Source: Bacteroidota bacterium
GTDB lineage: Bacteria; Bacteroidota; Bacteroidia; Flavobacteriales; Flavobacteriaceae
Assembly (NCBI GenBank): GCA_024280145.1
Contig: JAJRQR010000187.1
Coordinates: 1 to 47,682, forward strand
Direction of reading: 5' to 3'
DNA: 47,682 nt
Within the stretch, counting starts at the first letter, position 1; every line of letters starts with the position of its first letter. Of the stretch, positions 202 through 44,497 are shown piece by piece. The position numbers and the translations under genes were made by a program. A model generated the notes under the pieces. It was given only the letters and a program-made list of their open reading frames with translations. It was not told the DNA's origin and did no database searches.

Positions 202-2747
202 ATGGCTGAAGGCGAAAAATTAATCCCTATTAACATTGAGGATGAAATGAAGTCAGCTTACATTGATTATTCAATGTCAGTTATTGTGTCACGTGCGTTA
301 CCAGATGTAAGAGATGGTATGAAACCAGTTCACAGAAGAGTTTTATTTGGAATGCACGAACTAGGAATTAGAGCTACAGGCGCTCATAAAAAATCGGCAA
401 GAATTGTTGGGGAAGTTTTAGGTAAGTATCATCCACACGGTGATACCTCTGTTTACGATGCAATGGTGCGTATGGCTCAAGAATGGAGTTTGCGTTATAT
501 GTTGGTTGATGGACAAGGAAACTTTGGATCAATTGATGGTGACAGTCCGGCTGCCATGCGTTATACAGAAGCGCGTATGCAGAAGATTTCGGAAGACATG
601 TTGGCAGATATCGATAAAGATACTGTAGATCATCAATTAAACTTTGATGATACATTAAAAGAGCCTACAGTGCTTCCAACGCGTGTTCCAGGATTGCTAA
701 TTAACGGAGCCTCAGGTATTGCCGTTGGTATGGCAACCAATATGCCTCCTCATAATTTAACCGAAGTTATTGAAGGTACCATTGCTTATATTGAAGACAA
801 TGATATTGATATTGACGGTTTAATGCAACACGTAAAGGCTCCCGATTTTCCAACGGGTGGAACTATTTATGGTTATGAAGGTGTAAAAGATGCTTTTCAT
901 ACCGGAAGAGGGAAAATAGTAATGCGTGCAAAAACTTCTTTTGAAGAAGTAAACGGAAGAGAATGTATTATCGTTAGTGAAGTTCCTTATCAAGTGAATA
1001 AGGCAGATATGATTAAAAAAACTGCCGATCTTGTAAACGATAAGAAAATTGAAGGTATTTCAAATATTCGTGATGAGTCTGATAGAAAAGGAATGCGTAT
1101 CGTTTATATTTTAAAACGCGATGCTATCCCAAATATCGTATTGAATATGTTGTACAAATACACGGCGCTTCAGTCGAGTTTTAGTGTCAATAATATCTGT
1201 TTGGTAAATGGAAGACCCCGTCTTTTAAATCTGAAAGAATTGATTCATTATTTTGTTGAACACCGTCATGAAGTTGTGGTAAGGCGAACAAAATACTGTT
1301 AAAGAAAGCCGAAGAACGTGCGCATATTTTAGAGGGATTAATTATTGCTTCAGATAATATCGACGAAGTAATTCGATTAATTCGTGCATCAAAAAATGCA
1401 GATGAAGCAAAAGCAAAATTAATAGAAGCATTTAAGCTTACTGAAATTCAGGCAAAAGCTATTGTTGAAATGCGTTTGCGTCAGCTTACAGGTTTAGAAC
1501 AAGATAAATTACGTTCTGAATATGAAGAGTTGATGAAAACTATTCAAGGCTATAGAGATATTCTAGATAGCGAAGAACTTAGAATGAATATTATTAAGGA
1601 AGAACTAGAAGAAATTAAAGCTAAATATGGTGATGAAAGACGTTCAGTAATTGAGTATGCTGGAGGTGATGTAAGTATTACCGATTTAATTCCTGATGAA
1701 AAAGTAGTAATTACTATTTCTCACGCTGGTTATATTAAACGTACTTCTCTTTCAGAATATAAAAAACAAAATAGAGGAGGAGTTGGAGCAAAAGCAACTT
1801 CCACTAGAAATGAAGATTTCTTAGAACATTTATTTGTAGGAACCAATCACCAATATATGTTGTTCTTTACACAAACCGGAAAATGTTTCTGGATGCGTGT
1901 ATTTGAAATTCCGGAAGGAAGTAGAACTTCAAAAGGTAGAGCCATTCAAAACCTAATAAATATAGGCCTAGAAGATAAAGTGAAAGCATTTATTTGTACA
2001 CAAGATCTAAAAGACGAAGAGTATATTAATAGTCATTATGTAATAATGGCGACCAAAAAAGGTCAGGTTAAGAAAACACCTTTAGAGCAATATTCTAGGC
2101 CTCGTACTAACGGAATTAACGCTATTACTATTAAGGAAGGTGATGAGTTATTAGAAGCTAAATTAACAACTGGCGATAGCCAAGTAATGTTGGCAGTTCG
2201 TTCTGGTAAAGCCATTCGTTTTGAAGAAGAGAAAACACGCTCAATGGGACGTAATGCTTCGGGAGTTAGAGGAATTCGTTTAGGGAATGATACCGATGAA
2301 GTAATTGGTATGATTACTATTAACGATTCTGAAACAGACGTTTTAGTTGTAGCCGAAAATGGCTATGGTAAACGTTAAAGTTTAGATGATTACCGTATTA
2401 CCAACCGTGGAGGAAAAGGTGTAAAAACCATTAGTATTACCGAAAAAACATGGAAAGTAGTCGCCATTAAAAAGGTAACGGATCACTATGATTTAATGAT
2501 CATCAATAAATCGGGTATTGCTATTCGATTAGAAGTCTCTAAATTACGTGTTATGGGAAGAGCAACACAAGGTGTTCGACTTATAAAAGTTAGAGACGGT
2601 GATGCCATTGCTGCTGTTGCAAAAGTAATGCACGATGATGATGAAGTAGAATTAGACGAAGATGGAAATGTAATTATTTCAGAAAATGAAGAAACTACAG
2701 ATCAGTCTGATGAAACTACATCTGAAGTAAATAACGAAGAAGAATAA
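202..2747 (+). pseudogene. gyrA: DNA gyrase subunit A, interrupted by a frameshift and an in-frame TAA
   Basis: GyrA cleaves and rejoins DNA in the gyrase A2B2 complex, introducing negative supercoils. The N-terminal breakage-reunion domain is clear: catalytic Tyr121 in AAMRYTEAR and the quinolone region [10 protein letters not shown] with Thr82 and Asp86 at the E. coli Ser83/Asp87 positions. The C-terminal domain carries GyrA-box-like QNRGGVG and an acidic tail, and the full span (about 848 residues) is a normal length. The reading frame is broken twice. After RRTKY (1294-1296) only two bases (1297-1298) stand where a codon is expected, and [11 protein letters not shown] continues in another frame from 1299. 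A TAA at 2376-2378 interrupts GYGKR-SLDDYRITNRGGKG without a frame change. This is the canonical flavobacterial gyrA locus (gyrA then TPR gene), so loss is implausible and sequence error is likely, though not proven. Confidence 0.93.
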
Positions 2748-2777
2748 ACCTAATTAAATAATTTAAAATATATTACG

Positions 2778-4040
2778 ATGAAAAAACAAATTTTAATAGT
2801 AGGCTTGATGATGATATCTGCTATAACTTTTGGACAAAAAAAAGAGATTAAATCTGCTCTTAAATTCTTAAAAGCAAATAATTTTCCTGAAGCAATTTCT
2901 ATATTAACACCATTAGAAGGTGCTATAGCTACTGCAGATTCTTCTGTAGAACAACAGTATTATCTAGTATTGGGTAAATCATATCTAGGAGATGCTGGAA
3001 ATGATTATGAAAAAATGGAGAAAGCAGGAGAAGCTTTTGATAAAGCACTTGCTGTTGATAAAAAAGGAAAATATAAAGAGGATATAGAAATTGGGTTGAA
3101 TGATTTAAAAAATGCATTAATTGAAAGTGTAAAACTAGATCAGCAATCAAAAAAATATATCGATGGTTCAAAAAAGCTTTATAAAGGATATACTCTAAGT
3201 AAGCAAGACACTATCTTTTTATATTATGCTGCATCATTTGCTACAGATGGAAAAGATTATGATAGAGCTATTGATTATTATTCAGAATTGTTAGAACTTA
3301 GTTATACAGGGATTCAAGACGAGTATTATGCCATAAAAAAAGGAACAACGGAAGAGGTAAAATTTGGCTCTAAAAAAGAAAGAGATTTAGTTATAAAAAG
3401 TGGTGATTATGTAATCCCAACAGAGAAAAAAACGAAATCTAAAAAGCCAGATATATTAAAAAGTTTGACGTTCATTTATAATATTAAAGGAGAAACCGAG
3501 AAAGCAAAAGTTTTAATCAAAGAAGCTAGAAAAGAAAACCCTGACGATATTGATTTACTAAATGCTGAAGCTAATATGTATTACAAAGCAAATGATATGG
3601 TAAATTATAAGAAAGTGGTAAATGAAATGATTTCTAAAGATCCTAAAAATCCACAATTATATTATAATTTGGGAGTAGCAAGTAAGAAAAATGGAGAAGT
3701 TGAAGAAGCTTCAAAATATTATGATAAAGCAATTGAGTTAAAACCAGACTATGTTGAAGCATTAATTAATAGATCACAAATCATTCTTGCAGGTGAGGCT
3801 GCGATCATTGAAGAAATGAATGGATTAGGAACTTCAAATGCGGATTACAAACGCTATGACGAATTAAAAGAAGTTAAAAATGGTTTGTATAATGAAGCGT
3901 TGCCATATCTAGAAAAAGCATTAAATGTTCGTAAAGACGATGCAGATATCATCAGAACCTTAAAAAGTATGTATGATTTATTAGGTATGGATGATAAAGC
4001 TAAGGAGATGAGAACTCGTTTATCTGAAATAGAAGGTTAG
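2778..4040 (+). CDS. Secreted tetratricopeptide-repeat protein
   Basis: A 420-residue protein with an N-terminal signal peptide (MKKQ followed by a hydrophobic stretch ending near TFG-Q). It then carries helical TPR-type repeats, for example around residues 270-330 (LYYNLGVASKKNGEVEEASKYYDKAIELKPDY). TPRs are protein-binding scaffolds; the export signal points to the periplasm or outer-membrane inner face. It starts 30 bases after gyrA on the same strand, with no separate promoter that I can see, so co-transcription with gyrA is likely. A gyrA-TPR pair is a recurring flavobacterial arrangement (established synteny, recalled rather than checked). The specific partner is unknown. The frame is intact and a bidirectional terminator follows. 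Confidence 0.85.
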   Translation: MKKQILIVGLMMISAITFGQKKEIKSALKFLKANNFPEAISILTPLEGAIATADSSVEQQYYLVLGKSYLGDAGNDYEKMEKAGEAFDKALAVDKKGKYKEDIEIGLNDLKNALIESVKLDQQSKKYIDGSKKLYKGYTLSKQDTIFLYYAASFATDGKDYDRAIDYYSELLELSYTGIQDEYYAIKKGTTEEVKFGSKKERDLVIKSGDYVIPTEKKTKSKKPDILKSLTFIYNIKGETEKAKVLIKEARKENPDDIDLLNAEANMYYKANDMVNYKKVVNEMISKDPKNPQLYYNLGVASKKNGEVEEASKYYDKAIELKPDYVEALINRSQIILAGEAAIIEEMNGLGTSNADYKRYDELKEVKNGLYNEALPYLEKALNVRKDDADIIRTLKSMYDLLGMDDKAKEMRTRLSEIEG

Positions 4041-4058
4041 CAATAAATTGTTATTATA

Positions 4059-4098
4059 AAAAAACTTCCAAAATCAATTTGACTTTGGAAGTTTTTTT
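4059..4098. terminator. Bidirectional rho-independent terminator
   Basis: Inverted repeat with arms AAAACTTCCAAA and TTTGGAAGTTTT around a loop of about ten bases, with an A-run on the left and a T-run on the right. It therefore terminates both the rightward gyrA-TPR transcript and the leftward thiolase-NlpC transcript. It overlaps the last codon of the NlpC/P60 gene. Confidence 0.8.
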
Positions 4099-4846: not shown

Positions 4847-4875
4847 TTAAAAAGAATTTCTAGAGAAAGTTTGTA

Positions 4876-6054: not shown

Positions 6055-6089
6055 TTTATTGTACAATTTTTTAATTAAAAATAGGATTA

Positions 6090-6097
6090 CAAATTTA
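6090..6097 (-). promoter_or_regulatory. Candidate -7 element for the thiolase operon
   Basis: On the minus strand TAAATTTG matches the Bacteroidota -7 consensus TAnnTTTG, about 36 bases before the thiolase start. No TTG sits at the expected -33 distance, so support is partial. Confidence 0.4.
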
Positions 6098-6187: not shown

Positions 6188-8233
6188 ATGAAAAGTATTT
6201 TTTCTTTTTTTTCTAAAAATCAATCTTTTATCTACAAGGCTTTACTTTTTGTATTTGCCACGTTATTAGTAATATATCTGTTACCAAAAGGGGGACAGTT
6301 TAAATATAGTTTCCAAAAAGGAAAGCATTGGCAGTACGAAAACCTATATGCTCCCTTTAGTTTTGCTATTAAAAAAACACAGGAAGACTTAGATATTGAG
6401 ATAAATGAAATAAGAAATAAGTCAATCCCTTATTTTGAAGTTGATACTTCTAAAGTTTCTGAAACAAGAAATTTATATATCAATTTGTTTGAAGAATCAT
6501 TTACGGCGGATTTTATTAAAGCTAAAAAACCTAAAGTTAAGAAAGTTGGATTATTAATAATTGACAAACTTTATTCTTCTGGGGTTTTAAAAGAGAATTA
6601 TCCGTATGCTTCGGATAAATTAATTTATCTAAAAAACGGAAGTGAAGTACAAAAGATCTCATTCAGCCAATTGTATTATATTGAAAATATCGAAATTATA
6701 ATTAAAGAGTTTGTCGATAAAAACTCGGTGAGTGAATCTGAATTATTTTTAAATGAACTACTATCAAAAGTAATTAGTCCAAATGTATTATTTAATAATG
6801 ATTTAACCGAAACTACTATTAATTCAGAAATTGAGGCTATAAATCCCAATATTGGAATTATTGAAAAAGGAAGTAGGATAATAGCGAAAGGTGAGGTAGT
6901 TGAAGGCGAGAAGTTTCAAAAACTAAATTCTTTTAAAGCGGTATTTCAATCTCAAGTTTGGAGCAAATCAAACTATTATTGGTTGCTTTTAGGTTATTCG
7001 TTATTGGTAATGTTGGTGTTTTTCATGTTGTTTTTATTTATGAAAAACTACAGAAAGGAAATCTATGAAAACAATACTAAGGTTTCGTTTATATTTTTTA
7101 ATATTATATTAATGGTATTTCTTACTACCATTGTGGTAAAGTATGATGTAAAAATGGTTTACATTACACCATTATGTATTTTGCCATTGGTTTTAAAAAC
7201 CTTTTTTGATGCTAGATTGGGATTGTTTGTTCACGTGCTAACTATCTTATTATTAGGTTTTATTGTGCCTGATAGTTTTCAGTTTTTATTTTTACAAACC
7301 ATTGCTGGAATGGTAACAATATTAACAGTTTCAGAGCTTTACAAAAGAGCTAACTTATTTATATAAGTAGGTCAAATTACCTTTGTTTATATATTAGGAT
7401 ACTTCGCTTTTTACATTATTCAGGAAGGAAATATTGAATTTATTGAAATTAAAAATTTCGGATATTTTGTATTGTGTGGTATGTTAACTTTATTTTCATT
7501 TCCGCTTATTTATATCTATGAAAAAGCTTTTGGATTGGTTTCTGACGTTACTTTGTTGGAATTGAGTGACACCAATTCTAAATTACTAAAAGAGCTATCT
7601 AACAAAGCACCGGGTACCTTTCATCATTCCTTAAATGTAGCTAATTTAGCTGAAGCGGCAGCAAATGAAATAGGTGCAAATGCAATGTTGGTAAGGGTAG
7701 GAGCCTTGTATCATGATATTGGTAAAATGACAAATCCTACTTATTTTACTGAAAATCAAGTATCGTCAATCAACTCACACGATGAGTTAGAACCCAAAGA
7801 AAGTGCACAAATTATTATAGATCACGTAATTAAAGGAATTGAAATAGCTAAGAAAAATAAATTGCCTGATCGTATTATAGATTTTATTCGAACGCATCAC
7901 GGTACCAGTTTGGTCTACTATTTTTATTCAAAAGAAAGTGAAAATTTAGGTGAAGTTAATAAAGCAAATTTCTCGTATCCTGGCCCCATTCCTTTTTCAA
8001 AAGAAACAGCAATCTTAATGATGGCTGATAGTGTAGAGGCTGCAAGTAAAAGTTTAAAAGAACCTACATCCTCTAAATTAGATACTTTTGTTGAAAAAAT
8101 TATAGATGGGCAGATGGCAAATGGACAGTTTTTAAATGCAAATATTACTTTAAAGGAAATTCAAAAAATAAAGAAAATTCTTAAAAAGAAATTGAATAAT
8201 ATGTATCACCTCAGAATTGAGTATCCTGAATAA
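6188..8233 (+). pseudogene. PgpH-type 7TM-HD domain hydrolase with an in-frame TAA
   Basis: Member of the 7TMR-HD family, of which PgpH is a membrane cyclic-di-AMP phosphodiesterase (family knowledge). One membrane segment lies near residues 17-33, followed by an extracytoplasmic domain to about 255 and a bundle of hydrophobic segments from about 262 to 440. The cytoplasmic HD domain has GTFHHSLNV, the metal pair His509-Asp510 in YHDIGKM, and IRTHHGT. The total is about 681 residues, normal for the family. A TAA at 7364-7366 interrupts the membrane region between LYKRANLFI and VGQITFVYILGYF with no change of frame. A TCA serine codon would fit by one base change (inference). If real, the stop would remove the whole catalytic domain. 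The downstream part contains a possible internal TTG start at 7472, which would give an HD domain with few membrane spans. Confidence 0.88.
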
Positions 8234-8244: not shown

Positions 8245-8722
8245 TTGTGTTTTGATATTTCATCTGCAAAAATTAAACAGTTTATTGCAAAAAAAACAAA
8301 AGGCAATCTCAGATGGTTTTTTTTGAGTCACATTTTTCCTTTGGAAACAAGTTGCCTTATTACTGTTATATCCCTTCAGCTGAATTTAAAGATGGACAGA
8401 ATTTATTCATGTTAGCTTTGATTTTTAATGAAACAGATGCGATAAATTCCAGTTGCTCAATAATTACAATGGAAGCAACCAATTTCTTTTCTGAAGTTCA
8501 TAATCTTAATAAACAAATGCCTTTAGTGTTGGATGATTCTATAATTCAAAACTGGTTAAATACAGATTTAAATGAAAATGGAATAAGATCAATATTAAAA
8601 GTAGGGTTACAAAAAAGGAGTTTAAAGCTCATTCTGTTTCAAAAAAAGTATATTTAAAAAAAGAAAATACTAACTATTCAGAAATTTTAAACTTGATGGA
8701 ATACCCCAATTTATTTAGTTAG
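8245..8722 (+). pseudogene. Decayed SRAP (YedK/HMCES-like) gene
   Basis: SRAP proteins shield abasic sites in single-stranded DNA by cross-linking through the cysteine at position 2. A TTG start at 8245 gives LCFDISSAKIKQFIAKK, resembling the Met-Cys N-terminus. After a T8 run (8317-8324) the frame must slip to continue as FFESHFSFGNKLPYYCY and SCSIITMEATNFFSEVHNLNKQMPLVL, the family core. A second slip at an A6 run (8611-8616) leads to EFKAHSVSKKVYLKKENTNYSE and a stop at 8722. Even after repair the product is only about 158 residues and lacks some 70-90 residues of the N-terminal half that full SRAP proteins have. So this is real decay by internal deletion and not merely two base errors. 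It converges with, and overlaps by four bases, the DUF4421 gene. Confidence 0.7.
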
Positions 8723-12952: not shown

Positions 12953-13959
12953 TCATTCCGAAACAGCTTCAGTATTTCTTTTTCCAGTTAAAATATTAGG
13001 AATAAAAATAACACTTAAAGACAGAAAATTACTTTTAAAACGTTGTTTTGTACCATAATCTAAAGCATATTTTGCTCTTATATTTAATTTTTCTATAATT
13101 GGCCAAGCACCTGCACCAAAACTAACAGTACTGGTTTGGTCTTTATCAAATAATTGGGAGTCTTTCCACCAAATACCTTCACCCGTATCGTTTCCTATTT
13201 GCCAGTTATGCCCGTTTATTACTTCAAATTCTAACCATGAATTAACGTATTGACTAATTCCGTATTCAATAGTAAACCTACTTCCAGGACGAACACTTGA
13301 ATCTTTAATTTCTCCGTTCATTTCGTAAGTTGGCATTACAAATAAAGCGGTTGCTTTTTCCATTAAATAATAATAAAAAGGAACTTGTAATTGATGTGTC
13401 CAATAACCTTTACCAATATTGTCGTCTGCACCCGTTTCATATTTTCCAGTAGGAGCGTAGGCAGTGTAGATAAATGAAAAATCCATTTTATCTTTTGTCC
13501 AAGATAGATTTAATGGCGAAAAAGCCATATCACCAAACCCACTTGTGTTTCCTTTGGTATATACTTCGTTATTATCTGTATGAATGTTTGCTTTATAGTT
13601 TGAGGAAATTAATGTAGGAGCAATTGAAACTGAATATCTTCCACCTAATAGTTTAAATTTTGAAGTATAAAATAGTACAGGGACATTAATGTAACCAGAA
13701 ACATTAATATCAAGATTAAGAAGTTTGTCTTGTACTTGAATCCCTGTAACTTTATTTCCGTTTTTATCGTAATAACCATTGCTGTTGTTCCAATAATTAT
13801 AATCTATAAATATGAGCCCAGGGCTTGTAATTGATGCTAAATCACGAACATTCATTATCCCAGGTTGGTAAGAACCACTTTGATATGCACTGACTCTTTG
13901 GGCTAATACATTACTAAAAATTAATGTTGTAAATGACAGTAGGAGTAATATTTTTTCAT
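12953..13959 (-). pseudogene. MetA-pathway/SphA-type outer-membrane protein with a frameshifted signal peptide
   Basis: The body (VSAYQSGSYQPGIMNVRDLASITSPGLIFIDYNYW to TGKRNTEAVSE) has the pattern of the PF13557 family ('MetA-pathway of phenol degradation'), outer-membrane barrels thought to pass hydrophobic compounds: GDMAFSPLNLSW, FIYTAYAPTGKYETGADDNIGKGYWTHQLQ, FTIEYGISQYVNSWLEFEVINGHN. The uninterrupted frame has its first ATG only at 13855. Upstream it reads ILLLLSFTTLIFSNVLAQ, an ideal signal peptide, which connects to ATGAAAAAA at 13959 only if the six-base A run (13951-13956 on the plus strand) had one more base. So a one-base deletion in a homopolymer separates start and signal core. 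Repaired length is about 335 residues. It follows the DUF1254 gene (14020-15573) after a hairpin. Confidence 0.75.
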
Positions 13960-13974
13960 CTTTAAACTTTTTTT

Positions 13975-17938: not shown

Positions 17939-18883
17939 ATGCAAATAATAAAAGCAATTTTTACTGATTTTGATATATACAATGCTACCGTAGAAGATTG
18001 GCAATTACATTATAATGTTTTAAGTAAAAGTGATTTTAAAGCCGATTTAAATATGTTTACGGACACACTTTTTGCATTGAGTCGAGTTTCATTACAAGGT
18101 AAGTTGGTTCATTCTGGAAAAACACCAATTGGCTTTAGATCTATTGTAATCCCAATAAACTATGAAGATAAATTTATTTGGTATAATAAGGGCTCGGGAG
18201 GAAATGAATTGCTCATTTTTAATAAACAATGCGATCTTGACGCTATAACTTTTAACGATTTTGATGCTTATGTGATTTCAATAGAAGAAGAATTATTAAA
18301 AAATATCACCACAGATTTAAATTATAATAATTGTAAAAATATTTTTGTTGATGCTGAACAAGAGCTGCATTTAACTAAAGAATTTTTATCTGAATTTCAT
18401 GAATTAGCAGATTGGTTTTTAAATGAATATATAATAGATATTAACTTCACCGTAAATGACCTAAAAAAACATGAAAAATTAGTACAAACTCTTATTTATA
18501 AAGTACTTGGTTATATTGAAAAAGCACCAAAAAAGAAGCCAGTAAAGAGTAAACATAAAAAATAAATTGCGTTAAAAGAAGCGATAGAAATTATTCATAA
18601 AGATCAAGAAAATTTATATTCAATAAAGGAATTAAGTATTTTGACAAATGTGAGTGAACGTTCTCTTTTATATGCCTTTAAAGAAAAATACAAAGTATCA
18701 CCAAGTCAATTTATTAAAGCTTCACGGCTTAATAAAGTTAAGAATGAATTATTTGCGTTAAAGGATAAAAAACCATCCATTGCAAATATCGCTGGAAAAT
18801 ATCAATTTTGGCATATGGGTCAATTTGCAAAAGATTTTAAAGAGCAATTTGGAATACTTCCCTCAAAAATGGTAAATAAGTAA
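17939..18883 (+). pseudogene. AraC-family transcriptional regulator split by a TAA between its domains
   Basis: The first part (208 residues, to 18565) is the ligand-sensing half: FDIYNATVEDWQLHYNVLSKSDFKADLNMFTDTLFALSRVSLQGKLVHSGKTPIGFRSIVIPI, EutR/cupin-like in outline. After a TAA at 18563-18565 the same frame continues IALKEAIEIIHKDQENLYSIKELSILTNVSERSLLYAFKEKYKVSPSQFIKASRLNKVKNELF. The two helix-turn-helix units of the AraC DNA-binding domain then end at 18883. The joined length, about 314 residues, is normal. The stop falls in the Lys-rich linker (PKKKPVKSKHKK), so it separates sensor from DNA-binding domain cleanly. A TTG at 18641 could start a shortened DNA-binding piece. The gene is divergent from the DUF1254 gene, suggesting it regulates that group. 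Confidence 0.85.
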
Positions 18884-22205: not shown

Positions 22206-23194
22206 ATGAAGAAATTTCTACTTGTAATTATTGTATTCATACCACTAGTGTCTACTTCTCAAAAGAGTGATTCTATACCAGGTAATAATTATATAGAAGT
22301 TATGAATGATAAATTAAGTGTTAAAATTGATGTAGATAACGACATAGAAATTTTTACTGCTGAAGAAAACGGGATTGGTTTTAAAATAAAACCAAATATT
22401 GATTATCGTACTGAAGTATCGGTACATTACCGATTTATCTCGTTTAAATTAGGCTTCTCACCACATTTATTTACCAATTTTGATAATGAAAATAAAGGAA
22501 ATACTAAAGTGTTTAAATTTGAAACCGATTTTTATATCAAAAAATGGATACAGACTTTATCTTATTCTCAAACCAAAGGATATTACTCACCAGATTTTCC
22601 TGTTCCAGATGAGTATCCTGCTGATTTTCTAATTTTAGATCAACTAAAAGTTTATAATTTTAAAGGAATCACAAGATATCGTTTTAACCCAAATTATTCT
22701 ATTAAAGCGATTACAACTCAAACCGAAATACAAAAAAAAAGCGCAGGAACTTTTATGCCAAGCTTTACTCATAGCTATAATCATTTAAAAAATGGAGCAA
22801 CTAATCAGAAACTTAATACTTGGAATTTTATATTAAGTGCGGGGTATTTACATACGTTTGTAATAAATAAGAAGTTGTACGCTAGTATTGGTGGTTCGCC
22901 AGGAGCTGGTGTTGATTTCAATAAAATTATTGTAAATATAGATGGGGATAAAATAACGGATAACGATACTAATTATACCTTCAATTTTGATGGTCATTTA
23001 GGTTTGGGGTATAATTCAAACAGGTGGTTTGGTGGTGTTTTTTTAGATTACTTACCACAACCCGAAAAGAAACCACAATTGTTAATTACGATACCGTTAG
23101 AACACATTTTCAATTATTTATTGGGTACCGTTTTGGTGCCCCAAAGTTTTTAGAGAAACAAGCAGATTGGCTAGAGGAGAAGTCTCCTTTTTGA
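22206..23194 (+). pseudogene. DUF4421-like outer-membrane protein (copy 2) with a late frameshift
   Basis: Signal peptide MKKFLLVIIVFIPLVSTSQ, then a barrel pattern homologous to the protein at 8719-9801 (YRFISFKLGFSPHLF, TQTEIQKKSAGTFMPSFTHSYNHL, LYASIGGSPGAGVDF, GHLGLGYNSNRWFGGVFLDYL). The frame read from the start ends in an unrelated tail (LLITIPLEHIFNYLL) at 23153. Shifting by one base near 23055-23085 restores NYDTVRTHFQLFIGYRFGAPKFLEKQADWLEEKSPF with a stop at 23192-23194. That gives the same IGYRF-AP ending as copy 1, so a one-base deletion, perhaps in the AAA run of GAAAAGAAACC, is the simplest reading. Repaired length is about 330 residues. A terminator follows at 23221. Confidence 0.8.
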
Positions 23195-23565: not shown

Positions 23566-24738
23566 TCAGACTTTTGAACAGGCTAAAATAATTTTCTGAT
23601 CATTTTCTGAAGTAGTAAAAAACAAATAATCATCACCGCCATCGCTAATTTTAAACTTTCTTCTAATTTCCGAAACACTTTCGGGAAAGTTTCGAGTAGT
23701 GATATTTGCTTTATTAATTTGTAAAGATTTTTTGATTTCTTTTTTTGAATAGGGAATAGTTGCGTTTATAATAAATTTTCGTCCTGGAAAATTTACTGTT
23801 TTATCACTAGTAAACAGATGAGTGTTTTTATGAAGTTTTTGAACACTATACCTTTCAGAAATAAGATGAAATGCGCCACTTTTCAGTACGGCAGCATTGG
23901 GCTCGTATAGAAATTTTAAAGGACTAGAGAAATTTGATTGCGATTCGTCTCCCCAAACAAAGTCGAATTTTTCATTTAATGTTTTATTAAAGTTTATAGT
24001 TTTAATTTTGGGAGCTTTACTAAACCCTTTGTTAATTAGCCATAGCAACTCTTTTACTTCGTTGTTTATAGCGACTATATGTATTTCCGAAACATACTGC
24101 AGTTCATTTAAACCAACTGTAATATCCAGCATTGGCGAGGTTTTAAGAAGTAGATGCTTGCAGTTATTTAAAATTAAATTGAGGGTTTCTGGAACATTTG
24201 GCAAACAATCATTTAGTAAAAACACTTTACCCTTACGTTCATTTCGCCTTGAAGGATCTATATAAATAACGTCGTATTGTTTATTTTGAATTTGCTGTAA
24301 TCCATCTTCTGAAATGCATTGAATGTTTTTTCTTTGTAAAACTGAAAAATTATAAGAGGCTATTTCAGAAAGAGACTTATTGATTTCAAAATGGTATACT
24401 TCTTTAAATATTTCTGAAAAGTAATAGCTGTCAATTCCAAATCCTCCAGTTACATCTGCAATGGTTTTTCCGTTAATTATAGATGCTTTGTATTTGGCAG
24501 TTTTTTCAGAGGAGGTTTGCTATAAGTTAAGTTTTGGTGGATAGAAAATATTTTTAGTCAGAAACCAAGTAGGAAGTTTTTTTTCAATTTTTTTACGACT
24601 TTCAATCTGCTGAATAAGTTCTTGAACTCTAACTTCATCAAACGGACTTCCTGCAAAAGCAAGTTTTGAAATATCTCCATTGTAATTGATGATAAACTCC
24701 TGTATTTCCGAAGTTAATATATCTTTATTTAAACTGAT
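23566..24738 (-). pseudogene. THUMP-like class I methyltransferase with an in-frame TAG and no ATG start
   Basis: A SAM-dependent methyltransferase of a family common in flavobacteria. The N-terminal helical part (LNKDILTSEIQEFIINYNGDISKLAFAG...IESRKKIEKKLPTWF) is followed by the SAM site TIADVTGGFGIDSYYF, the catalytic-type motif YIDPSRR, and a C-terminal THUMP-like domain. Two lesions are seen: a TAG at 24520-24522 within YPPKLNL-QTSSEKTAKYKA, frame unchanged, and an ATC at 24738-24736 where an ATG (ATG-AGT-TTA-AAT) would be expected, directly after the permease stop codon. Glu (GAG) at the stop position would need one base change (inference). Repaired length is about 390 residues. It is the last gene of the tsaD operon. 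The substrate is unknown. Confidence 0.85.
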
Positions 24739-28830: not shown

Positions 28831-31800
28831 TTGAAAAAAATAATAAAAAGAATAATTGCAATACTATTGCTCTTTATTGTACTCGTTATTATTACTTTAT
28901 CTATTCCCGCCGTTCAAACTTTAATAGCAAAAAAAGTTACTATTAAGTTAAACGAAGAATTTGGCACCAATATCAACATTCAACGCCTAGGGCTTAATTG
29001 GAAAGGCGAAGTAGATATACGAGAAGTGTATATTCAAGACCACCATCAAGATACTTTAATTTATTCAAAAAGGCTTCAAACCAATATATTGAGCATTAAA
29101 AACTTGATAGATGGTAACTTAGATTTTGGTTTTATTGAATTAAATGAAGCAAAATTTTATTTAAAAACATATAAAGGGGAAGATTCTGATAATGTTACCA
29201 TATTTTCAGATAAATTTAGTTCAGACAAACCTAAAAGTGACAAACCATTTAGTCTTTTGGGAGAGGATATAACACTTACAAATAGCAAGGTTAAAATTAT
29301 AAATGAAAATCTTGAAACCCCTGAAATATTTAATCTTTCTGAGATAGAAATCAAAAGCAATAATTTATTAATTAATGGACCTAATGTAAATACAGACATC
29401 AAATTATTAGCACTAAAAGCTAAGCGTGGTTTTACTATTAAAAGTATGTCTGGTGACTTTTCCTATTCATTAACTTCTTTAAATTTAGAAAACTTACTAT
29501 TAAATACGGGGACTTCTACTATTAATGGGAATATTAAAATGAATTATGATGAAGGCGGAATGTCAGACTTTGTCAATAAAGTTAACATGGATGTTCAGCT
29601 TCGAGAAACTAAAATCTCAACCAATGATATTAATGCTTTTTATAATGAATTCGGAAAAAACCAACTTATTCAAATTGAAGGTGAGATAAAAGGAACATTA
29701 AATAATTTTATTTTTACCAACGGAAAAATCACCAACGGGCGAATAAGTTTAATTGGAGATTATACCTTTAAGGATTTAATTAGTGAAGAAAAAGACTTTT
29801 CAATAAATGCGACAAATCATAGCATTACGGCTAATTATAATTCATTGGTTAGGTTTATGCCAAGAGTTTTAGGAAAAACACTTCCAGATGAATTAAAAAT
29901 TTTAGGAAACATTAAATTTAAAGGGAACACAACTATTACAAGTACCACTTTAAAAACTGTAAGTACCTTATATAGTTCATTAGGAAATGCAAAAACAAAT
30001 ATTACAATTAATAATTTAAGCAATCCCAAAAAAGCAACTTATATAGGGGATTTAGTTTTCACTAATTTTAAAATCGGCACACTTATAAATTCTGAAACTT
30101 TTGGTGCCATTTCATCTAACTTACATGTTGAAGGCACAGGGTTTACACAACAATCCTTAGACACTAAAATTGATGGTCTTATAAATTCCTTTGTCTTTAA
30201 AGATTATGAATACAATAATATAATTGTTTCTGGGAATTTAAAAAACCCTGTTTTTGATGGTGAGTTAATTATTGATGACCCTAATATTAAAATGAATTTT
30301 AAGGGTTTGGTTGATGTTTCTAAAGAGTTAAATCGATTTGATTTTTCAGCAGATGTAGATTTTGCTGAACTCAATAAATTAAACCTAATGAAACGAGATA
30401 GTATCTCCGTTTTTGTAGGGAAAATTTATATGAATATGAATGGAAATGACATAGATAATACTTTTGGCACTATATCTTTTAAAGAAACTTTTTATCAAAA
30501 TGAAAACGATGACTTCTATTTTAATGACTTTGTTATAACCTCAAAAAAGGAAGGATTAAAAAGAACCATCGATATTAATTCTCCAGATATTATGACAGGG
30601 AAAATTTCAGGAGAATTTAAAATTAAAGAAATTCCGAAGTTATTTTTAAATGGGATAGGTAGTATTTATGCCAATTATATTCCCAAAGAAATTTCAGAAA
30701 ATCAATATATAAATTATGACTTTCAAATTTATAATAAATTAATTGAAGTTTTTATTCCAGAAATTGAGCTTGGGGAAAACACTCGGATTAAAGGCGCTGT
30801 TTTTTCAAATGAATCTAAGTTTAAATTCGATTTTAATTCTCCAGAAATGATTGTGTATAATAATTACCTTGGGAAAGTGAAATTTCAAGTGGATAATAAA
30901 AACCCATTATACAATGCATATATTTATGTAGATACCTTGTACAATGGTTTTTATAATTTAAAGGATATCAATTTAATTAACAAAACACTAAATGATACAC
31001 TTTATATTGGAACTTCTTTTAAAGGTGGCACAAATGCAGAGAATGAATTTAATTTGTCGTTGTACCATACTATTAACCCAGAAGGAAACTCAGTAGTTGG
31101 AGTAAAAAAATCAGATATTACTTATAAAGAAAATACTTGGTATTTAAACGAAAAAAACGATCGCTTTAATAAGATAATATTTGATAATGAATTTAAAAAT
31201 GTTCATTTTGATTCCATAGTTTTAAGTCATAACAATGAAGAAATTCAATTTGCAGGAACAACAAGTGATAGCTTACATAATAAACATTTACAAGTCCATT
31301 TTCATAATGTAAATATCGGAAATATTGTACCAAAAGTAGATAGTTTACGACTATATGGAAAGCTTGATGGCGATTTGAGTGTAATTCAGACAAATGGAGA
31401 ATACTTCCCAAGTTCTAGTTTAGATATCACAGATATCAACATTAACGATGTTGATTTTGGAGATTTAAATATTGATATTGAAGGTAATAATAGTTTAACT
31501 CGGTACAATCTAAATGCTGCATTAGTAAATAAAAATATAAAATCTATCAACGCAATAGGCTTTATGGATGCTACAGAAGATCCTACTCAAATTAATTTAA
31601 ATATTGATTTAAATGATTTTAATATGAAAGCAATAAGCCCTTTTGGCGGCAGTGTTGTTACAGATATTAGAGGATTAATTTCTGGAAGCGGTCAATTAAC
31701 AGGAAACCTAAACTCTCCAAATATTTTAGGGAATTTTAGTCTGAGAGATAGCGGATTAAAAGTACCTTATTTAAACATAGATTTAGATTTTGATGAAATC

Positions 31801-33242
31801 ACTAATATTATTGTCACTAAAGAAAAACTAGAAATATTAAATACGCATATCACCGATACCAAATATAAATCAGTTGGGAGGTTCTCTGGGAATGCAACAC
31901 ATAAAAATTTCAGTAACTGGAAATTGGACTTAAATATTACAACAGATAATTTATTAGTTTTAGATACTTCAATTGATGATAATAGTATGTATTACGGAAC
32001 TGCTTTTATAAGCGGAAAAGCAGATATTTATGGACCTATTAACGAATTGATAATTGATGTTGTAGCGACTACTGAGAAAAATACAGTCTTTAAAATTCCT
32101 TTAAGCGATACAGAATCTATTGGCGATAGTTCATTTATAAGATTTCTTTCTCCTAAAGAAAAAGAAGCAAGATTACGTGGTGAAACTATATTAATCAATG
32201 ATTTAACTGGTTTATCTCTTAATTTTGAATTGGACATTAACCGAAATGCAGAAGTTGAAATCGTAATTGATCAAGTAAATAAATCTGCTTTGCGAGGAAG
32301 AGGAGCAGGTACCCTTTATTAGAAATAAACACCCTGGGGAAATTTAATATGTGGGGGGATTTTATTGTATATGAAGGAATTTACGATTTTAGATATGGTA
32401 AAATAATTCGGAAGGAAATTGAAGTTGAAAGAGATGGAACTATTACTTGGGATGGAAACGCTAGTAAAGCCGAGCTAAATTTAAAAGCAGTTTACAAAAC
32501 CAAAGCAAATCCATCTGCATTACTTGATGATCCAACCATTAACCGAAAAATCCCAGTAGAAGTATTTGTAGAGTTACAAAAAGACATTACGCAACCAGAA
32601 TTAATTTTTGACATTGGTTTTCCAGATGTACGTTCAACGGTTAGAAGTGAATTAGAATACAAGTTGCAAACTGATGAAGAACGCGACAAACAGGCTCTCT
32701 TCCTACTTACAACAGGTTCGTTTATTAGTAATACAGCAGGACAAAGTGCTCTTTCGGGAACGGTGACAGATGGAATAAATGCAATACTTTCTCAATTACT
32801 AACAGACGATGAGGCGATAATTAATATTTCTCCTTATTATGATATGGGAATTGATACCCCAGAAATTGAAACTCAAGATGAGTTTGGGGTTCAGTTTTCT
32901 TCTCAAATAAGCGAACGAATTATTATAAATGGTAAAGTAGGAATTCCAGTTGGAGGTATTAACGATTCCAGAGTCGCGGGAGATGTTGATGTGCAATGGT
33001 TAGTTAATGAAGATGGAAGTCTACGTATTAACTTTTTTAACCGCCAAGCGGAATTGCAATTTATTGGAGAAGATCAAACTTTTGAACAGGGGGCAGGTAT
33101 TTCTTATTCAGTTAATTTTGATACAATGAAAGAATTAATGAATAAATTATTTGGTATAAAAATCGAATTAGAACCTGAAGAGGAGGTATTTATACCAGAT
33201 GATAATTCTCCTGTTATCTTTAAATCGAAATCTAAAAATTAA
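28831..33242 (+). pseudogene. TamB/DUF490-type translocation-assembly protein with a frameshift
   Basis: A very large envelope protein (about 1,470 residues when repaired). One N-terminal membrane anchor (MKKIIKRIIAILLLFIVLVIITLSIPAVQTLIA) precedes a long series of beta-rich AsmA/TamB-type repeats and a C-terminal TamB (DUF490) domain. TamB-like proteins span the periplasm and help transport lipids or assemble outer-membrane proteins. The start is a TTG at 28831; an in-frame TAA just upstream excludes an earlier ATG. At 32314-32322 the frame reads ctt-tat-tag and stops after GAGTLY. Skipping to the next frame gives LEINTLGKFNMWGDFIVYEGIYDFRYGKI, so one base is missing around 32315-32318. Divergent tamB-tsaD is usual in Bacteroidota. 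Confidence 0.88.
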
Positions 33243-33669: not shown

Positions 33670-36367
33670 CTATAATCGTTTGTCTGGTTCTCTTCGCTTT
33701 TCATATTTAATATCACTAAGCATTGATGATTTAATACCAATAAACATATACCAAGAAGTATTGGTAGCACCAATTGGTGTCCAGTTAAAGCTCAATCGCC
33801 AACTTTCTAAATCTCTTTGAAAACGAAATTGTGTTAGAGTGATTCCTTTGTTTTTAAAGTCGTATCCAGGGGAAATACCAACTTTCCATTTAGGCGAAAA
33901 CTCTACGTTTGAACTAAACATTATGGACTGTGATGATATTTCATTCTGTCTAGAAAAATTATTATAGGTGATGGTATATGCCATTCTAAAATCCCAAGGA
34001 ATTGAAAAATTATACCAGTTAAAATCTGATTTTGAGGCAGCTTCATCATCTTCATATTTACTTCTATCATTGATAGGAGTGGAATCACCAAACAAATCAT
34101 CAGGACGCCCACCATTTCTAAATGTTTCTGTGTTAAAATCATCTTTTTCTTTTCCTTTAAAGTCCCTGCTTGAAAAAGAATAGTTAATACTTATGTTTCC
34201 TGCAGTTAATCTGAAAAGGCTACCACCATTATTAATATTAAATTGATCAACTCGTTGATTGTTATTATCTAAAGCATAAGGGTCTAAAGTTGCTCTAAAG
34301 TTAAAATCCAATTTATTTACCAAAGGTATGCTACCAGTAATATTCAACGGACTCCAGTTTAGTGAATCACCAGCAATATTATAAGCAGTTCTAAAATCTA
34401 AATTATTTAGGATAACTATTTTTTTGCCTTTGCAATAGTAGTGTCTCGATCTCTTACTTTTGCCTCTAATGTATTACTCATTCCAATATTAACGCTACTA
34501 GATTTAACTCTTCCTGGTGATCCATATAGTGATTTTTCAAACCTAGAATAGTAAACAGTTTCGCTAGTATTATCACCTAATGGTTTTTCATAAGAATCCC
34601 AAAACTGATCAAAGGAAGGGTTCACTGTATAACCAATAGATGGTCTTAAAATATGGCGAATAGCTTGTATCTTTTTGTCTTTCCCAAAACTAAACATACC
34701 ATAAACGGTCGTACCTAAACTAGTCGAAAAGTTATAAGTCCGAAAACTATCAAAACCATTGATAGTATCTTCTACTACACCACCAACTCCATCATTAAAA
34801 TTAGGATCGTATTCTTTATTTGTAGTTTTAAATGTCCAATTTTCTTTATAAGTGGTATTCGCAGATGCACTTAAATATTTAAGTATTTTAAAATTGGTGC
34901 TTAAAGGAATGGTATGCTGAACACCAATTTGAGCGTTTTCAAACATCTCAGGTTTAAAAAAAGTGAATCGGTTGTTTTTATTCTGTTTTCTGCTGTAAGA
35001 TTGTACTGTAAATTAATATTATCAATGATTCCTTTTTTAGTTCCAACTTTTGGTTCAAAAGGAAAAATACGTGCCACACTTGCATTTAAATTTGGAAGTG
35101 ACATATTAATTTCTTGAGTGTTGGTGTTTTGTGAATGTGTACCAGCAACAGAAAAATTAACTTGAGGAACCGTTTCAAAAGTTTTTGAATAGGAAATAGA
35201 AGAACTTAAGGTATTTACCAAAGCACTTGCATTATTAGTCTGATTTATGGATTCTTGAAAATACTTACTCGAACCTAAATTCACCGAAGCGGAGAAACGA
35301 GAACTCGGATTTGATTTCGCATCTTGATTATGATTCCAACGTATATTATAAACAGAACTTTCGCTAAAATCATCAAAGCCACGTTGACTATTTATTAATT
35401 TTTCAAACCGTAAGCTTAGATTACCATTGAATTTATAACGTACTGCATAAGAGGATTCTGCACGCAATGCATAACTTCCATTGGTATAATAATCGCCCAA
35501 TACAGTTAGGTCTAAATAATCATTAATTGCAAAATAATATCCGCCATTTTGAAAGAAAAATCCACGTGCATTATTATCCCCGAAACTAGGTATTATAAAG
35601 CCTGATGCTCGATCTTTTGTTAATGGAAAAAAGGCAAATGGCAAGCCTAATGGCAAAGGGACATCCGCAATATACATATTGGTAAACCCAGTTACAATCT
35701 TTTTATTGGGTACAACTTTTGCCCTTCGAGTATAGAAATAATATTCTGGGTTGTCAATATCTTTTGAGGTAGTAAATTTTATATTTTTCAAAAAATAAAC
35801 AGAATCATTTACTCTTTTAGTTACTTCGGCTTTATAATTTAATTCCCCCTCACCAGAACGAGAATTATAAATTAAAGCTTTTTTGGTATCCATATTAAAA
35901 CGAATAGAATCGGGAACAACTTCAGTACCAGCCTGAGTAAATATAGGTAATTGCGAATAAACACCAGCACTATCAATCCCTCTAGCATATATTTCATTTT
36001 TACTATAATCTAATATAATATAACCCGCTTCAATTTTCATGTCTTGATAAGTGATATAGGCCTTATCGTACATATAAACTTTATGCTCCTTTTTGTTCAT
36101 ATATACATACTCTTCCCCATAATAATCCATTACTTCGGTAAGTAGTTCTTCTTTTGGTTGAACAGTATCTGTCTTTACAGAATCCAAAGCAATTTCATTT
36201 ACTTCAGGATTAATAATAGGTTTAATGTTTAATGAAACGGAATCTTGTTGTTTGCTAGTTGGGATTTCAACTTCATTTTTTGAAGGAATATCTTGCGAAT
36301 ACAAAGTGGTATTGCATAAAAGAAGCAAGATGAGAATTTCCAAGAAAAAATGCCTAAATGTTTGCAA
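33670..36367 (-). pseudogene. lptD: LPS-assembly protein LptD with two homopolymer frameshifts
   Basis: LptD is the outer-membrane barrel that inserts lipopolysaccharide with LptE, and is normally essential in LPS-containing bacteria. The signal-like start MQTFRHFFLEILILLLLCNTTLYSQ is followed by an OstA-type beta-jellyroll (VYMYDKAYITYQDMKIEAGYIILDYSKNEIYARG) and a long barrel (PLPLGLPFAFFPLTKDRASGFIIPSFGDN). The frame slips at a seven-base A/T run (34956-34962), after TTDSL, and resumes as FFKPEMFENAQIGVQHTIPL. It slips again at 34419-34425, after TTIAKAKK, and resumes as IVILNNLDFRTAYNIAGDSLNWSPL. One extra base in each run would restore a normal chain of about 899 residues ending at 33670. 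It is divergent from the amidase gene. Confidence 0.9.
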
Positions 36368-38666: not shown

Positions 38667-38669
38667 ACC

Positions 38670-39968: not shown

Positions 39969-40040
39969 TATATTTATTAATACTCGTTCGTTTAATAATA
40001 AAAAGCAATAAAATACCCCTGTCTAATCAGGAAGTTAGTT

Positions 40041-40475: not shown

Positions 40476-40483
40476 TTAACCTT

Positions 40484-40903
40484 ATGAAAAAAGTATTTTT
40501 TGTAGTTTTTTTCATTTTAAGTATTGTTGTAAACGCTCAGCCTATTGTGGGTGAATGGGAAACTTACGATGATAAAACAGGTGATAAATTATCGGTAGTT
40601 GAAATTTATAAAACAGGAAATAAATATTTTGGGAAAATCACACACTTATATAAGGATCCCTTAGATAGTGTTTGTGAGAAATGTGAAGGGAAAAATAAAA
40701 ACAAACCAGTTGTTGGTTTGTTGATTTTAGAAAATTTAGAAGAAGATGATGATGAGTATAATGGAGGAACTATTTTAGATCCTGATAATGGTGAATATTA
40801 TAAATGTTACATTGAACTTGTCAACGAAAATAAATTAAAGTTAAGAGGCTATATTGGAATTTCATTACTTGGAAGAACTCAATATTGGCATAGAAAGAAA
40901 TAA
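40484..40903 (+). CDS. DUF2147 secreted protein
   Basis: A 139-residue exported protein: signal MKKVFFVVFFILSIVVNAQ, then a small beta-barrel-type domain of DUF2147 (PIVGEWETYDDKTGDKLSVVEIYKTGNKYFGKITHLYK...GLLILENLEEDDDEYNGGTILDPDNGEYYKCYIEL...LKLRGYIGISLLGRTQYWHRK). A Cys-x-x-Cys (CEKC) lies mid-domain, perhaps a structural or metal site. The family is widespread and of unknown function. It follows the HAD gene by eight bases and precedes the CCG Fe-S gene by two, so these are one transcript. Confidence 0.88.
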   Translation: MKKVFFVVFFILSIVVNAQPIVGEWETYDDKTGDKLSVVEIYKTGNKYFGKITHLYKDPLDSVCEKCEGKNKNKPVVGLLILENLEEDDDEYNGGTILDPDNGEYYKCYIELVNENKLKLRGYIGISLLGRTQYWHRKK

Positions 40904-40905
40904 AA

Positions 40906-41697
40906 ATGAGCGATACAATTAAAGTACCTACAATGGCAGAATTTCTTGCCCAAGGAAAACAACCCGAAGTATTATTTTGGGTAGGATGTGCAGGAAGTTT
41001 TGACGATAGAGCAAAGAAAATTACCAAGGCTTTTGTAAAAATTCTAAATAAAGCAAATATTGATTTTGCTGTTTTAGGAACCGAAGAAAGCTGTTCTGGA
41101 GATCCTGCAAAACGTGCTGGAAACGAATTTTTATTCCAGATGCAAGCGATGATGAATATCCAAGTATTGGATGGCTATGAAATTAAAAAAATTGTAACTA
41201 CTTGTCCGCATTGCTTTAATACCTTAAAAAATGAATATCCCGAATTAGGAGGAAATTATGAAGTAATGCACCATACTCAATTTTTAAAAGACCTTTTAAA
41301 CGAAGGACGACTAAAAGTGGAAGGTGGAAGATATAAAGGAAAACGAATTACATTCCACGATCCTTGTTATTTAGGAAGAGCCAACAACGAATATGAAGCT
41401 CTACGTGATCTACTAAGAAAATTAGAAGTAGAGTTGATTGAAATGAATCGTTGTAAGTCTAACGGACTTTGTTGTGGGGCTGGAGGAGCGCAAATGTGTA
41501 AAGATGCTGAACCTGGAGATAAAGAAATTTTCGTTGAACGCACAGAAGAAGCGATTGAAGTACAACCTTCAATTATAGCAACAGGCTGTCCGTTTTGTAA
41601 TACGATGATGACTGATGGCGTAAAAGTAAAGGAAAAAGAAGACGATGTACAAGTGTTGGATATTGCTGAAATGATTGCTAATGCGGATGATTTATAA
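40906..41697 (+). CDS. CCG-domain heterodisulfide-reductase-like Fe-S protein
   Basis: A 263-residue cytoplasmic partner of the membrane Fe-S subunit. Two CCG-type half-sites, the binding mode for the unusual 4Fe-4S cluster of HdrB/GlpC/LutA proteins, are seen. The first uses Cys63 (ESCSGD) and TTCPHC at 100 and 103. The second has CCGAGGAQMC with Cys189-Cys190, and CPFC at Cys228/231. It likely completes an electron-transfer module for an oxidoreductase such as lactate or glycolate oxidation (inference from family). It is two bases after the DUF2147 gene and is followed by a bidirectional terminator. Confidence 0.9.
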   Translation: MSDTIKVPTMAEFLAQGKQPEVLFWVGCAGSFDDRAKKITKAFVKILNKANIDFAVLGTEESCSGDPAKRAGNEFLFQMQAMMNIQVLDGYEIKKIVTTCPHCFNTLKNEYPELGGNYEVMHHTQFLKDLLNEGRLKVEGGRYKGKRITFHDPCYLGRANNEYEALRDLLRKLEVELIEMNRCKSNGLCCGAGGAQMCKDAEPGDKEIFVERTEEAIEVQPSIIATGCPFCNTMMTDGVKVKEKEDDVQVLDIAEMIANADDL

Positions 41698-41731
41698 TAT
41701 TTAGATAATCAAATTCAAATCTATTAAAATA

Positions 41732-41755
41732 AAAAGGGGCAATTAAGCCCCTTTT
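41732..41755. terminator. Bidirectional terminator between Fe-S gene and M16 gene
   Basis: Arms AAAAGGGGC (41732-41740) and GCCCCTTTT (41747-41755) with a six-base AATTAA loop form a GC-rich stem, A-rich on the left and T-rich on the right. It ends the rightward Fe-S operon and the leftward M16 gene. Confidence 0.85.
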
Positions 41756-41785
41756 ATAATTTATACTAATTTAGGAAAGTGTCTT

Positions 41786-44497
41786 TTATTTAAAGTCACC
41801 AGCATTTACAACAGTCCATTCGTTAAAAGCTTTTAGGTATTTTTTAATAGCTTTATTAACATCATTTACAGATAGTTTTTTAATTTTTTCTTCAAAACTT
41901 TTCTGATATTCTAGTGTTCTATGATAATAAATATTATTATTTATTAATGATGAAAGTTCTCCGTCTTTAGCTCTAGAAACCGTTTGTCCTTGAACCCATC
42001 CATTAATTGCGTTATCTAATTCTTCTTGTGTAATTCCTTCCTTTATTAGTAAGTCAATTTCTTCTGTAAACCCAAGTTGAACCTTATCGTAATTGGCTGG
42101 AGCGTAAATTGCATAAACAAAGAAGGAAGAATTTTTATCTTCTTTATCTCCATCTACATTAAAACTAGCACCAACACCATAACTTACTCCATCTTTCTGA
42201 CGTAATCGGTCTGCCAATCTTGAATTTAAAAACCCACCTCCTAAAATAGAAGCAGCAATTCGTATGGCAGGATAGTCATCATCTGTTTCACACATTTCAA
42301 TTGCTAATGTTCCAAATGTTGTTGCGTTTTTCTTATCTGGCGTAATAATATCTTCTTTTACAGCTTTGTTTGGTTGATGAGGTTCTTTAATTTCACTATA
42401 CTTATTATTGCTTTTGAAATCGCCAAATTCATCTTAAATAAATTGCTTTACTTCAGCACTATTAAATGTTCCCATTGCTACTAATGAGCTTCTTCCCAAA
42501 CCATAAAAGTCATTATAAAACTTAGCAATATCTTCTATAGTAACACTTTTAATCGCTTCAACTTCCTCTTCTAATGTCATTGCATAAAGAGGGTGACCTT
42601 TTGAAAAATTATTGTTAATTAAACTAAGACGCTTCGAAGCTAAAAATTGCGGTTCTGTTGTGCTTTGCTCAAGTCCTGCCAATCTTTGTGTTTTAATTTT
42701 TTCTAATTCAGCTTCATCAAATTTAGGATGTTTAATCATTTCAGCCATTAATTGTAAAGTAGGCATTAAATTTTCTTTAGTTGAATTTACAGATGTGTAC
42801 AGATTTCCATTTCTAGCATAAAAAGATACAGAAGATTTTAATTTACTTAATTCATCTTCAATCTGTTGTCTGTTTTTTGATGTTGTACCTTTATTAAGCA
42901 TTGCAGATGTAAACGCAGGAGTAAATCCTTTGTTTGAAAGAGTTTTTACATCTCCATTCCTTAAATTAAAACTAATCGAAACTGTTTCTCCACGATTATT
43001 TTTTTCAATCATGCCATATTCTACACCGTTTGATAATGCGCCTTGATCTAATCTTTTTGTAATATTATCATAGCTAACATCAAACGCTTCACCTGCATCA
43101 AAACCTTTGTTACCTTTATAGTTTGAAACTAATTCTTGTAAGTTTGTGGTGTGATCAATACGAACTCTTTTTGGTTCTTTAGTAGGAATAAATCGACCTA
43201 TAGTTCGGTTGGTTGGTATGATGTATTTTTCTAATGCTTTGTTAACATTTTCTAGCGTCATATTTTCTATTCTATCTCTTTGGATAAACGCTAGTCGCCA
43301 ATCTCCAGCACCAATAAATTCACTCATATATGTTCCTAAGTAAGAGGAGGTCCTACTAATTTGATCTATTTGTTTGAGCAAATTAGCTTTCGCTCTATCT
43401 AGTTCTTCTTGAGTAATTGGTTCTAAGTTATCAAGGGTGTTTCTAAGGATTTCTTCAACTTCATCTGGGTCTTTACTAGAAGGTACATCTATATTCATAT
43501 AGACAAATCCAGGTTCTTTGGTGAAAGGCATAAACGACCATAATGAAGAAGCTTTTTGGCTATCAATTAGCTTTTTATATAAACGACCAGAAGGAGTATC
43601 TGTTAACACTTGTTCTATAATACTTAGACTTGCATAATCTTCATGCGATCCAGCAGGAGTATGGTATAACGCAGAAACAACATTTAAATCGCCAACTCTA
43701 CTAACAGTTACCCTTTTTTCTCCGTCTTGAGCTGGTTCTTCAGTGTAGGATTGAGAAATAGATACGTTTGGGTTTTCTAGTTTTGCGTATTTTTCTTCAA
43801 TAAGTTTTAAAATTTCTTCTTTATTAAACTTTCCTGTAACCATTAATACTGCATTATCAGGACGATAAAATTTATGATAAAATGCTTTTAAGTTTTCAAT
43901 AGGAACGCGTTCAATATCAGATCTATTTCCGATGGTTGAATTTCCGTAATTATGCCAAAGATAAGCTGCATCAATAACCTTCTGCATTAATACGCCAGTT
44001 GGATTATTTTCGCCACTTTCAAATTCATTTCTAACAACACTAAATTCACTTTCTAAATCTTCTTTAGCAATAAATGAATTTAACATTCTATCAGCCTCTA
44101 GATCCAAAGCCCATTCTAGATTTTCTGAAGTGGCATTAAAAGTTTCAAAATAATTTGTTCTATCATACCATGTTGTACCGTTGGGTCTTGCTCCGTGGGT
44201 GGTTAATTCTTTTGGAATATCCTTATGATTAGGGGTTCCTTTAAACACCATATGCTCTAGGAGGTGAGCCATCCCTTTTTCTCCGTAACCTTCATGTCTT
44301 GAACCCACTAGATAGGTTATATTTACAGTAATTGTTTGTGATGAATTATCTGGAAAGAGTAATACTTTAAGTCCGTTTTTTAATTGATACTCAGTAATAC
44401 CTTCAACTTGAGCGGTTTGTTTAAGCTGCGCCCAAGAGTTTGAAACTAAAAATACAAATAGAAGTAGTGTTAGTTTGGATAGAAATTGCTTTTTCAT
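41786..44497 (-). pseudogene. M16 zinc metallopeptidase, split by an in-frame TAA
   Basis: A two-domain insulinase-family (M16) peptidase, exported by MKKQFLSKLTLLLFVFLVSNSWAQ. The first domain has the zinc motif HLLEH (His78, Glu81, His82) and the third ligand-type Glu158 (RNEFE), spaced as in the family. The second half is the inactive-type partner domain, with a later SYGVGASFN resembling the R/Y substrate motif. The frame stops at a TAA (42434-42436) after AEVKQFI, then continues unchanged with DEFGDFKSNNKYSEIKEPHQPN to a normal end at 41786. Total is about 903 residues. If real, the stop would remove the last quarter of the chain, containing the R/Y motif that M16 enzymes need. Its substrate is unknown. 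Confidence 0.9.

Follow-up and report, generated by a model that had tools for sequence, protein, structure and literature searches.

Most broken genes in a contig of a draft Flavobacteriaceae genome are very probably mistakes of its assembly

A contig with interrupted genes

The window analysed here is a stretch of 47,682 nucleotides (contig JAJRQR010000187.1 of assembly GCA_024280145.1) in which gyrA, lptD, tamB and other genes are interrupted by in-frame stops or one-base frame slips (Table 1). It is the complete contig C193 of the draft genome G000, a metagenome draft from a genus of the Flavobacteriaceae, with 2,779,323 bases in 210 contigs and 87.15% completeness. Comparison with related genomes indicates that most of the broken genes are very probably draft-assembly mistakes.

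A protein search with one window protein returned seven named loci, from four metagenome genomes labelled Flavobacteriaceae, Flavobacteriales or Flavobacterium, two Flavobacterium isolates and one Algoriphagus. The genus of G000 holds 18 other genomes. The nearest, G011 and G012, mostly share 80-90% nucleotide identity with the window in aligned parts, and relatives overall are about 65-90% identical to G000. Breaks were counted as internal stops or frame changes within matches to the relatives' open reading frames, which served as tblastn queries after removal of shadow frames; nucleotide alignments with relatives were used besides tblastn at the break sites. In the final count at least 60% of the covering relatives had to agree, with at least eight relatives agreeing at a strict level and at least three at a looser one.

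Table 1. Interrupted genes and contig ends of the window
Feature	Position	Strand	Interruption or state	Basis
Contig end overlapping C11	1..141		exactly 141 identical bases	k-mer signature of assembler
gyrA	202..2747	+	one-base loss near 1295-1297; in-frame stop at 2376	NCBIfam gyrA in both large pieces
7TM receptor with HD hydrolase domain	6188..8233	+	in-frame stop at 7364	Pfam
SRAP remnant	8319..8716	+	first ~107 codons missing; frame change near 8611	Pfam SRAP; tblastn with intact relatives
Phenol_MetA_deg family gene	12953..13970 (upper end approximate)	-	possible one-base loss just after start codon (13951)	Pfam
DUF4421 gene	22206..23190 (end approximate)	+	one-base loss a few bases upstream of 23055	Pfam
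PG_1098 ferredoxin-like and THUMP-like domain gene	23566..24735 (upper end approximate)	-	in-frame stop at 24522	Pfam, in window piece and intact ortholog
tamB	28831..33242	+	one-base loss near 32316	Pfam TamB in intact ortholog
lptD	33670..36367	-	one-base losses near 34422 and 34956	Pfam LptD_2 in intact ortholog
M16 peptidase gene	41786..44497	-	in-frame stop at 42434-42436	Pfam
Contig end overlapping C25	47202..47682		4 substitutions in 481 bases	

The original prediction had listed 13 sites of interruption, in essential genes among others, and had proposed comparison with a close relative as a check. By that comparison, in which the relatives' frames run on uninterrupted, eight of the sites are borne out by at least three relatives, and six of these by 12-14. 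Both gyrA sites, at 1297 and 2376, are supported by 13/13 covering relatives in tblastn, the stop at 7364 by 12/12, the tamB slip at 32316 by 12/13, and the lptD slips by 14/14 (34422) and 12/14 (34956). The stops at 24522 and 42436 are supported by 4/5 and 3/3 covering relatives, respectively. All eight breaks are directly visible in the nucleotide alignments. In the 7TM-HD gene, PF07698 and PF07697 are found in the first window piece, and PF07698, PF01966 and PF07697 in the intact ortholog.

The other listed sites fared less evenly. Near 23055 the slip is seen with two of three relatives by tblastn, and in the nucleotide alignment the base missing from the window is present in all three. The break at 13951 is plausible from the comparison with a single relative: the start codon is absent from the frame that matches it, and an ATG lies one frame off, before a run of A. 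The break at 18563 finds no support, because its homolog is absent from every fetched stretch of the relatives. The last two sites both belong to the SRAP remnant, 8317 being where its homology starts and 8611 a change of frame seen with two of three relatives. In G011 just 37 residues at the end of SRAP still match, and in G012 just a nucleotide match at the 3' end is left. These two genomes keep even less of the gene, and SRAP has therefore truly decayed in the group. Judged by sequence comparison, the remnant is a genuine shared pseudogene and an exception to the reading of the breaks as errors.

Between 12953 and 20900 the window also carries two DUF1254/DUF1214 genes and three of Phenol_MetA_deg type, a block of which relatives match only scattered pieces.

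Breaks across the draft

Outside the window, about 6% of the remaining draft sequence was sampled, sequentially, and compared with a control set of 18 genomes, 16 from the genus and two Flavobacterium isolates; G030 and G008 were excluded, G030 because it is itself error-rich (6 strict breaks in 16,823 bases, some of them doubtful). At the strict level, 6 breaks were counted in 29,252 bases of the window, 3 in 34,327 bases of other G000 contigs and 1 in 704,610 bases of the controls. At the looser level the counts are 8 in 39,716, 7 in 72,062 and 28 in 991,831 bases, some of the 28 control breaks probably being misalignments. The sampled G000 sequence thus exceeds the controls about a hundredfold at the strict level and about fivefold at the looser level. 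No significant difference separates the window from the other G000 contigs (binomial P 0.18 strict, 0.12 at the looser level).

The aligned breaks elsewhere in G000 lie in obgE, an ECF sigma factor and a TPR gene on C180, and in genes for a proline dehydrogenase (C127), an ABC-2 permease (C20), an oxidoreductase (C34) and a P-type ATPase (C80). Given these breaks in other sampled contigs, the excess looks like a property of the whole draft rather than of one region. Decay local to the window contig had been suggested by early samples and was dropped once more stretches of G000 had been tested. Open-frame coverage without homology proved too coarse a measure of breaks to tell genomes apart.

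G030, a further draft of this genus in 20 contigs (L104, L158 and L182), shows many one-base frame shifts, mostly gains, which are probably a different type of error. It is about 93-96% identical to G001, in which 1 strict break was counted in 48.7 kb.

Gene importance and constraint

Conservation gave genes no protection from breaks. There are 9 breaks in the 63.6 kb of core stretches, covered by at least eight relatives, compared with 6 in the 48.2 kb of less conserved sequence. Important genes are not spared: gyrA and lptD are each broken twice, and obgE is broken as well. A second gyrA was not found in the draft, where the sole match is a distant paralog on C127.

Away from the breaks, private changes affect 35 of 2163 invariant residues in 10 broken genes and 264 of 12050 in 91 unbroken ones. 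The difference (P 0.10, 10 broken among 101 genes) is in the direction of more constraint in the broken genes. In 12/15 relatives the same gene sets differ in the same direction, which indicates that the direction reflects the genes themselves. Early private-residue rates were inflated by misaligned columns beside slips and are not used. Thus neither relaxed constraint nor dispensable function, as expected of genuine decay, is found outside the SRAP remnant, and the breaks in core genes together with normal pooled constraint disfavour decay.

Stops, slips and contig joints

Seven in-frame stops and nine slips were counted in G000, with four stops and five slips in the window and three stops and four slips elsewhere. 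The sites 8317, 8611, 13951 and 18563 are excluded from these counts, as are L022:7610, L021:2755 and L151:10504, with two supporting relatives each. L166:2963, first flagged as a stop, proved on alignment to be the loss of one base and is counted among the slips.

It had been suggested that most slips are one base too few in an A/T homopolymer, a known error type of several sequencing chemistries. The first part holds in that all nine aligned slips are losses of one base, but by our own reading of the alignments only 5/9 lie in, or at most two bases from, a run of at least five identical bases. The attribution to homopolymer error is thus borne out only in part. The seven stops are substitutions rather than homopolymer miscalls and are nearly as many as the slips. 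About 5.3% of random substitutions are computed to create a stop, so that seven stops would correspond to about 130 erroneous bases in 112 kb, or about 0.1%. Substitutions would therefore outnumber lost bases, unlike in long-read or flow chemistries, where homopolymer indels dominate.

The contig joints also point to short reads. Among 12 overlapping pairs of contig ends, five overlap by exactly 141 identical bases (C193/C11, C80/C24, C8/C140, C104/C100 and C16/C1), four overlap imperfectly and three exactly at other lengths. The repeated exact overlap is a signature of de Bruijn short-read assembly at k=141, the usual largest value of MEGAHIT. Such an assembly needs short accurate reads of more than 141 bases, and a long-read homopolymer explanation therefore fits poorly. 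The two contigs of the imperfect C193/C25 overlap each have a site of their own at which they differ from every relative aligned there, 14 for C25 and 9 for the window. An error rate calculated from imperfect overlaps was rejected, as an imperfect overlap requires that no 141-mer be shared and would thus select for differences.

C93 (L197, 4355 bases) overlaps itself exactly by 116 bases: its beginning and its end carry an identical sequence in direct orientation, as a circular element of about 4.2 kb would. One of the two ends also resembles the start of C200. Stretches of about 60 bases at L032:4940-4996 and L032:7710-7771 recur widely in G000 and several relatives and are possibly a dispersed repeat family.

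The bias among stops

Each of the seven stops aligned in G000 is due to a C:G to A:T change, against an expectation of about two; with an expected share of about 0.27 per stop change, the probability of 7/7 is about 1e-4. The pattern was first seen on the four window stops and then on all three stops of other contigs. At one of the seven, L032:5895, the third codon position also differs from the relatives shown. In three imperfect contig overlaps, with the more diverged pair C93/C200 excluded, 5/9 substitutions are C/A. Oxidised guanine in a library would give C:G to A:T changes.

A general excess of this class at invariant sites is not clear: it makes up 12% of the amino-acid-changing private changes of G000, a count in which three window sites enter twice through a second anchor gene, and 7-14% in 16/19 other genomes (range 0-20%). 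Nor did a cross-talk signature (A/C and G/T) emerge among ordinary amino-acid-changing substitutions, at 20.5% in the window, 26.5% elsewhere in G000 and 15-27% in seven relatives. Clusters of private changes show no clear excess in G000, and those of some relatives are apparently dominated by paralogs. The mutY gene is present and open in G000, with 343 codons and no stops; its match starts at profile position 15, and the 14 full matches in relatives start at 2. With the class not clearly raised and mutY open, the data therefore establish neither damage nor a mutator, and the bias among stops is a residual puzzle that is only partly explained.

The draft also gave two mutY matches, on C178 and C130, of which one is almost complete and the other lies at the end of its contig. 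These contigs may come from two strains binned together.

Weighing the explanations

With the SRAP remnant excepted, it is quite probable that the interruptions are errors of a draft built from short metagenomic reads at thin coverage. At a site with few reads, a base that is wrong or missing in one of them could pass into the contig; a substitution that happens to make a stop would then appear as an in-frame stop, and a lost base as a frame slip. In the living organism gyrA, lptD, tamB and obgE are most likely intact, and the interruptions, SRAP aside, very probably do not mark a decaying lineage. The original prediction had left the choice between an error-rich assembly and a truly decayed genome, and the breaks on other contigs, the hits on core genes and the constraint data favour error, decay being real for SRAP alone. 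Several points weigh against this reading. The thin coverage is itself inferred, and one-base losses are commoner than expected of ordinary Illumina reads. The spread of breaks is uneven: early samples of other contigs gave 0 in 30.4 kb and then 1 in 43.0 kb at the looser level, and three of the seven breaks outside the window sit on C180. Private changes in tamB (14/462) and the ABC-2 permease (6/168) exceed those of the average unbroken gene. Exact overlaps are not always of 141 bases (C44/C140, 126; C80/C83, 79), and the little excess of C:G to A:T changes at invariant sites leaves the bias among stops without a match.

That bias and the C/A substitutions in the overlaps would be accounted for if the breaks were real in the DNA, stemming from an oxidised template or a G:C to T:A mutator subpopulation and fixed into contigs at low coverage; this is unlikely, given the invariant sites and a mutY that is open, even with a match starting late in the profile. 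There is only a slim chance that the contigs hold true, short-lived mutations of living cells under a heavy G:C to T:A mutational load, from an oxidative mutator or oxidised dormant DNA, with core genes newly broken in many of these cells. Long-read or flow-chemistry errors (nanopore, 454 or Ion Torrent) would suit the uniform loss of one base, more than half of the losses at or near runs, and the many one-base shifts of G030, but the exact 141-base overlaps speak for short reads assembled by de Bruijn graph, indel-dominated chemistries would not give nearly as many stops as slips, and this explanation is distinctly improbable. Recent genome-wide inactivation in a decaying lineage like the young symbionts, with a cell that lives without the genes or depends on a host, is very unlikely as well. 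Every break is locally convincing, natural slippage commonly removes one base from A or T runs as well, and the SRAP remnant is a product of true decay that sister genomes share; yet core genes are struck as often as others, no second copy of the twice-broken gyrA was found in the draft, the pooled broken genes are under no relaxed constraint, and private changes follow the patterns of the relatives. Finally, slippage at A/T runs or read-through of stops could yield full proteins, and transcriptional slippage at homopolymers has been discussed in print for AT-rich symbionts. Such recoding is extremely improbable, as 4/9 slips have no run of at least five bases nearby and the relatives' frames are uninterrupted at the same sites. 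TAA, the codon at 5/7 internal stops, is also an ordinary terminator, ending 106 of the 126 open frames of at least 200 codons in sampled G000 sequence; this ordinary use of stop codons rejects reassignment.

Implications and comparison with known systems

The warning that the breaks change how the annotation should be read was right, and broken genes in the annotation of G000 should not be taken as gene losses. By simple extrapolation from the 15 breaks in the 112 kb tested, the 2.78 Mb of the draft would hold some 300-370 false ones, which may also depress its completeness scores. The case shows that, even where no reads are at hand, a draft rich in errors can be recognised by ortholog tests and by the overlaps of its contig ends.

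Genuine mass pseudogenisation, with many broken genes in one genome, is reportedly found in Sodalis glossinidius (PMC7067036). In G000, by contrast, the breaks extend to core genes and are confined to one draft, and constraint is normal. Interrupted coding sequences in Mycobacterium smegmatis are comparable in that a significant proportion of them proved to be sequencing errors (PMC1852416); there the matter was resolved by resequencing and proteomics, and here by comparison only. Cooley and Wright 2024 (PMC11017572) describe low coverage with short reads as a source of spurious stops and frameshifts, with low read quality raising stops more than frameshifts, and an excess of both against relatives, tied to a single assembly, is seen there as well as here. 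Their material consists of near-identical isolates, whereas G000 is a metagenome-assembled genome with far more distant relatives. Also unlike in that account, the breaks in G000 were counted by ortholog tests, and its stops carry a C:G to A:T bias.

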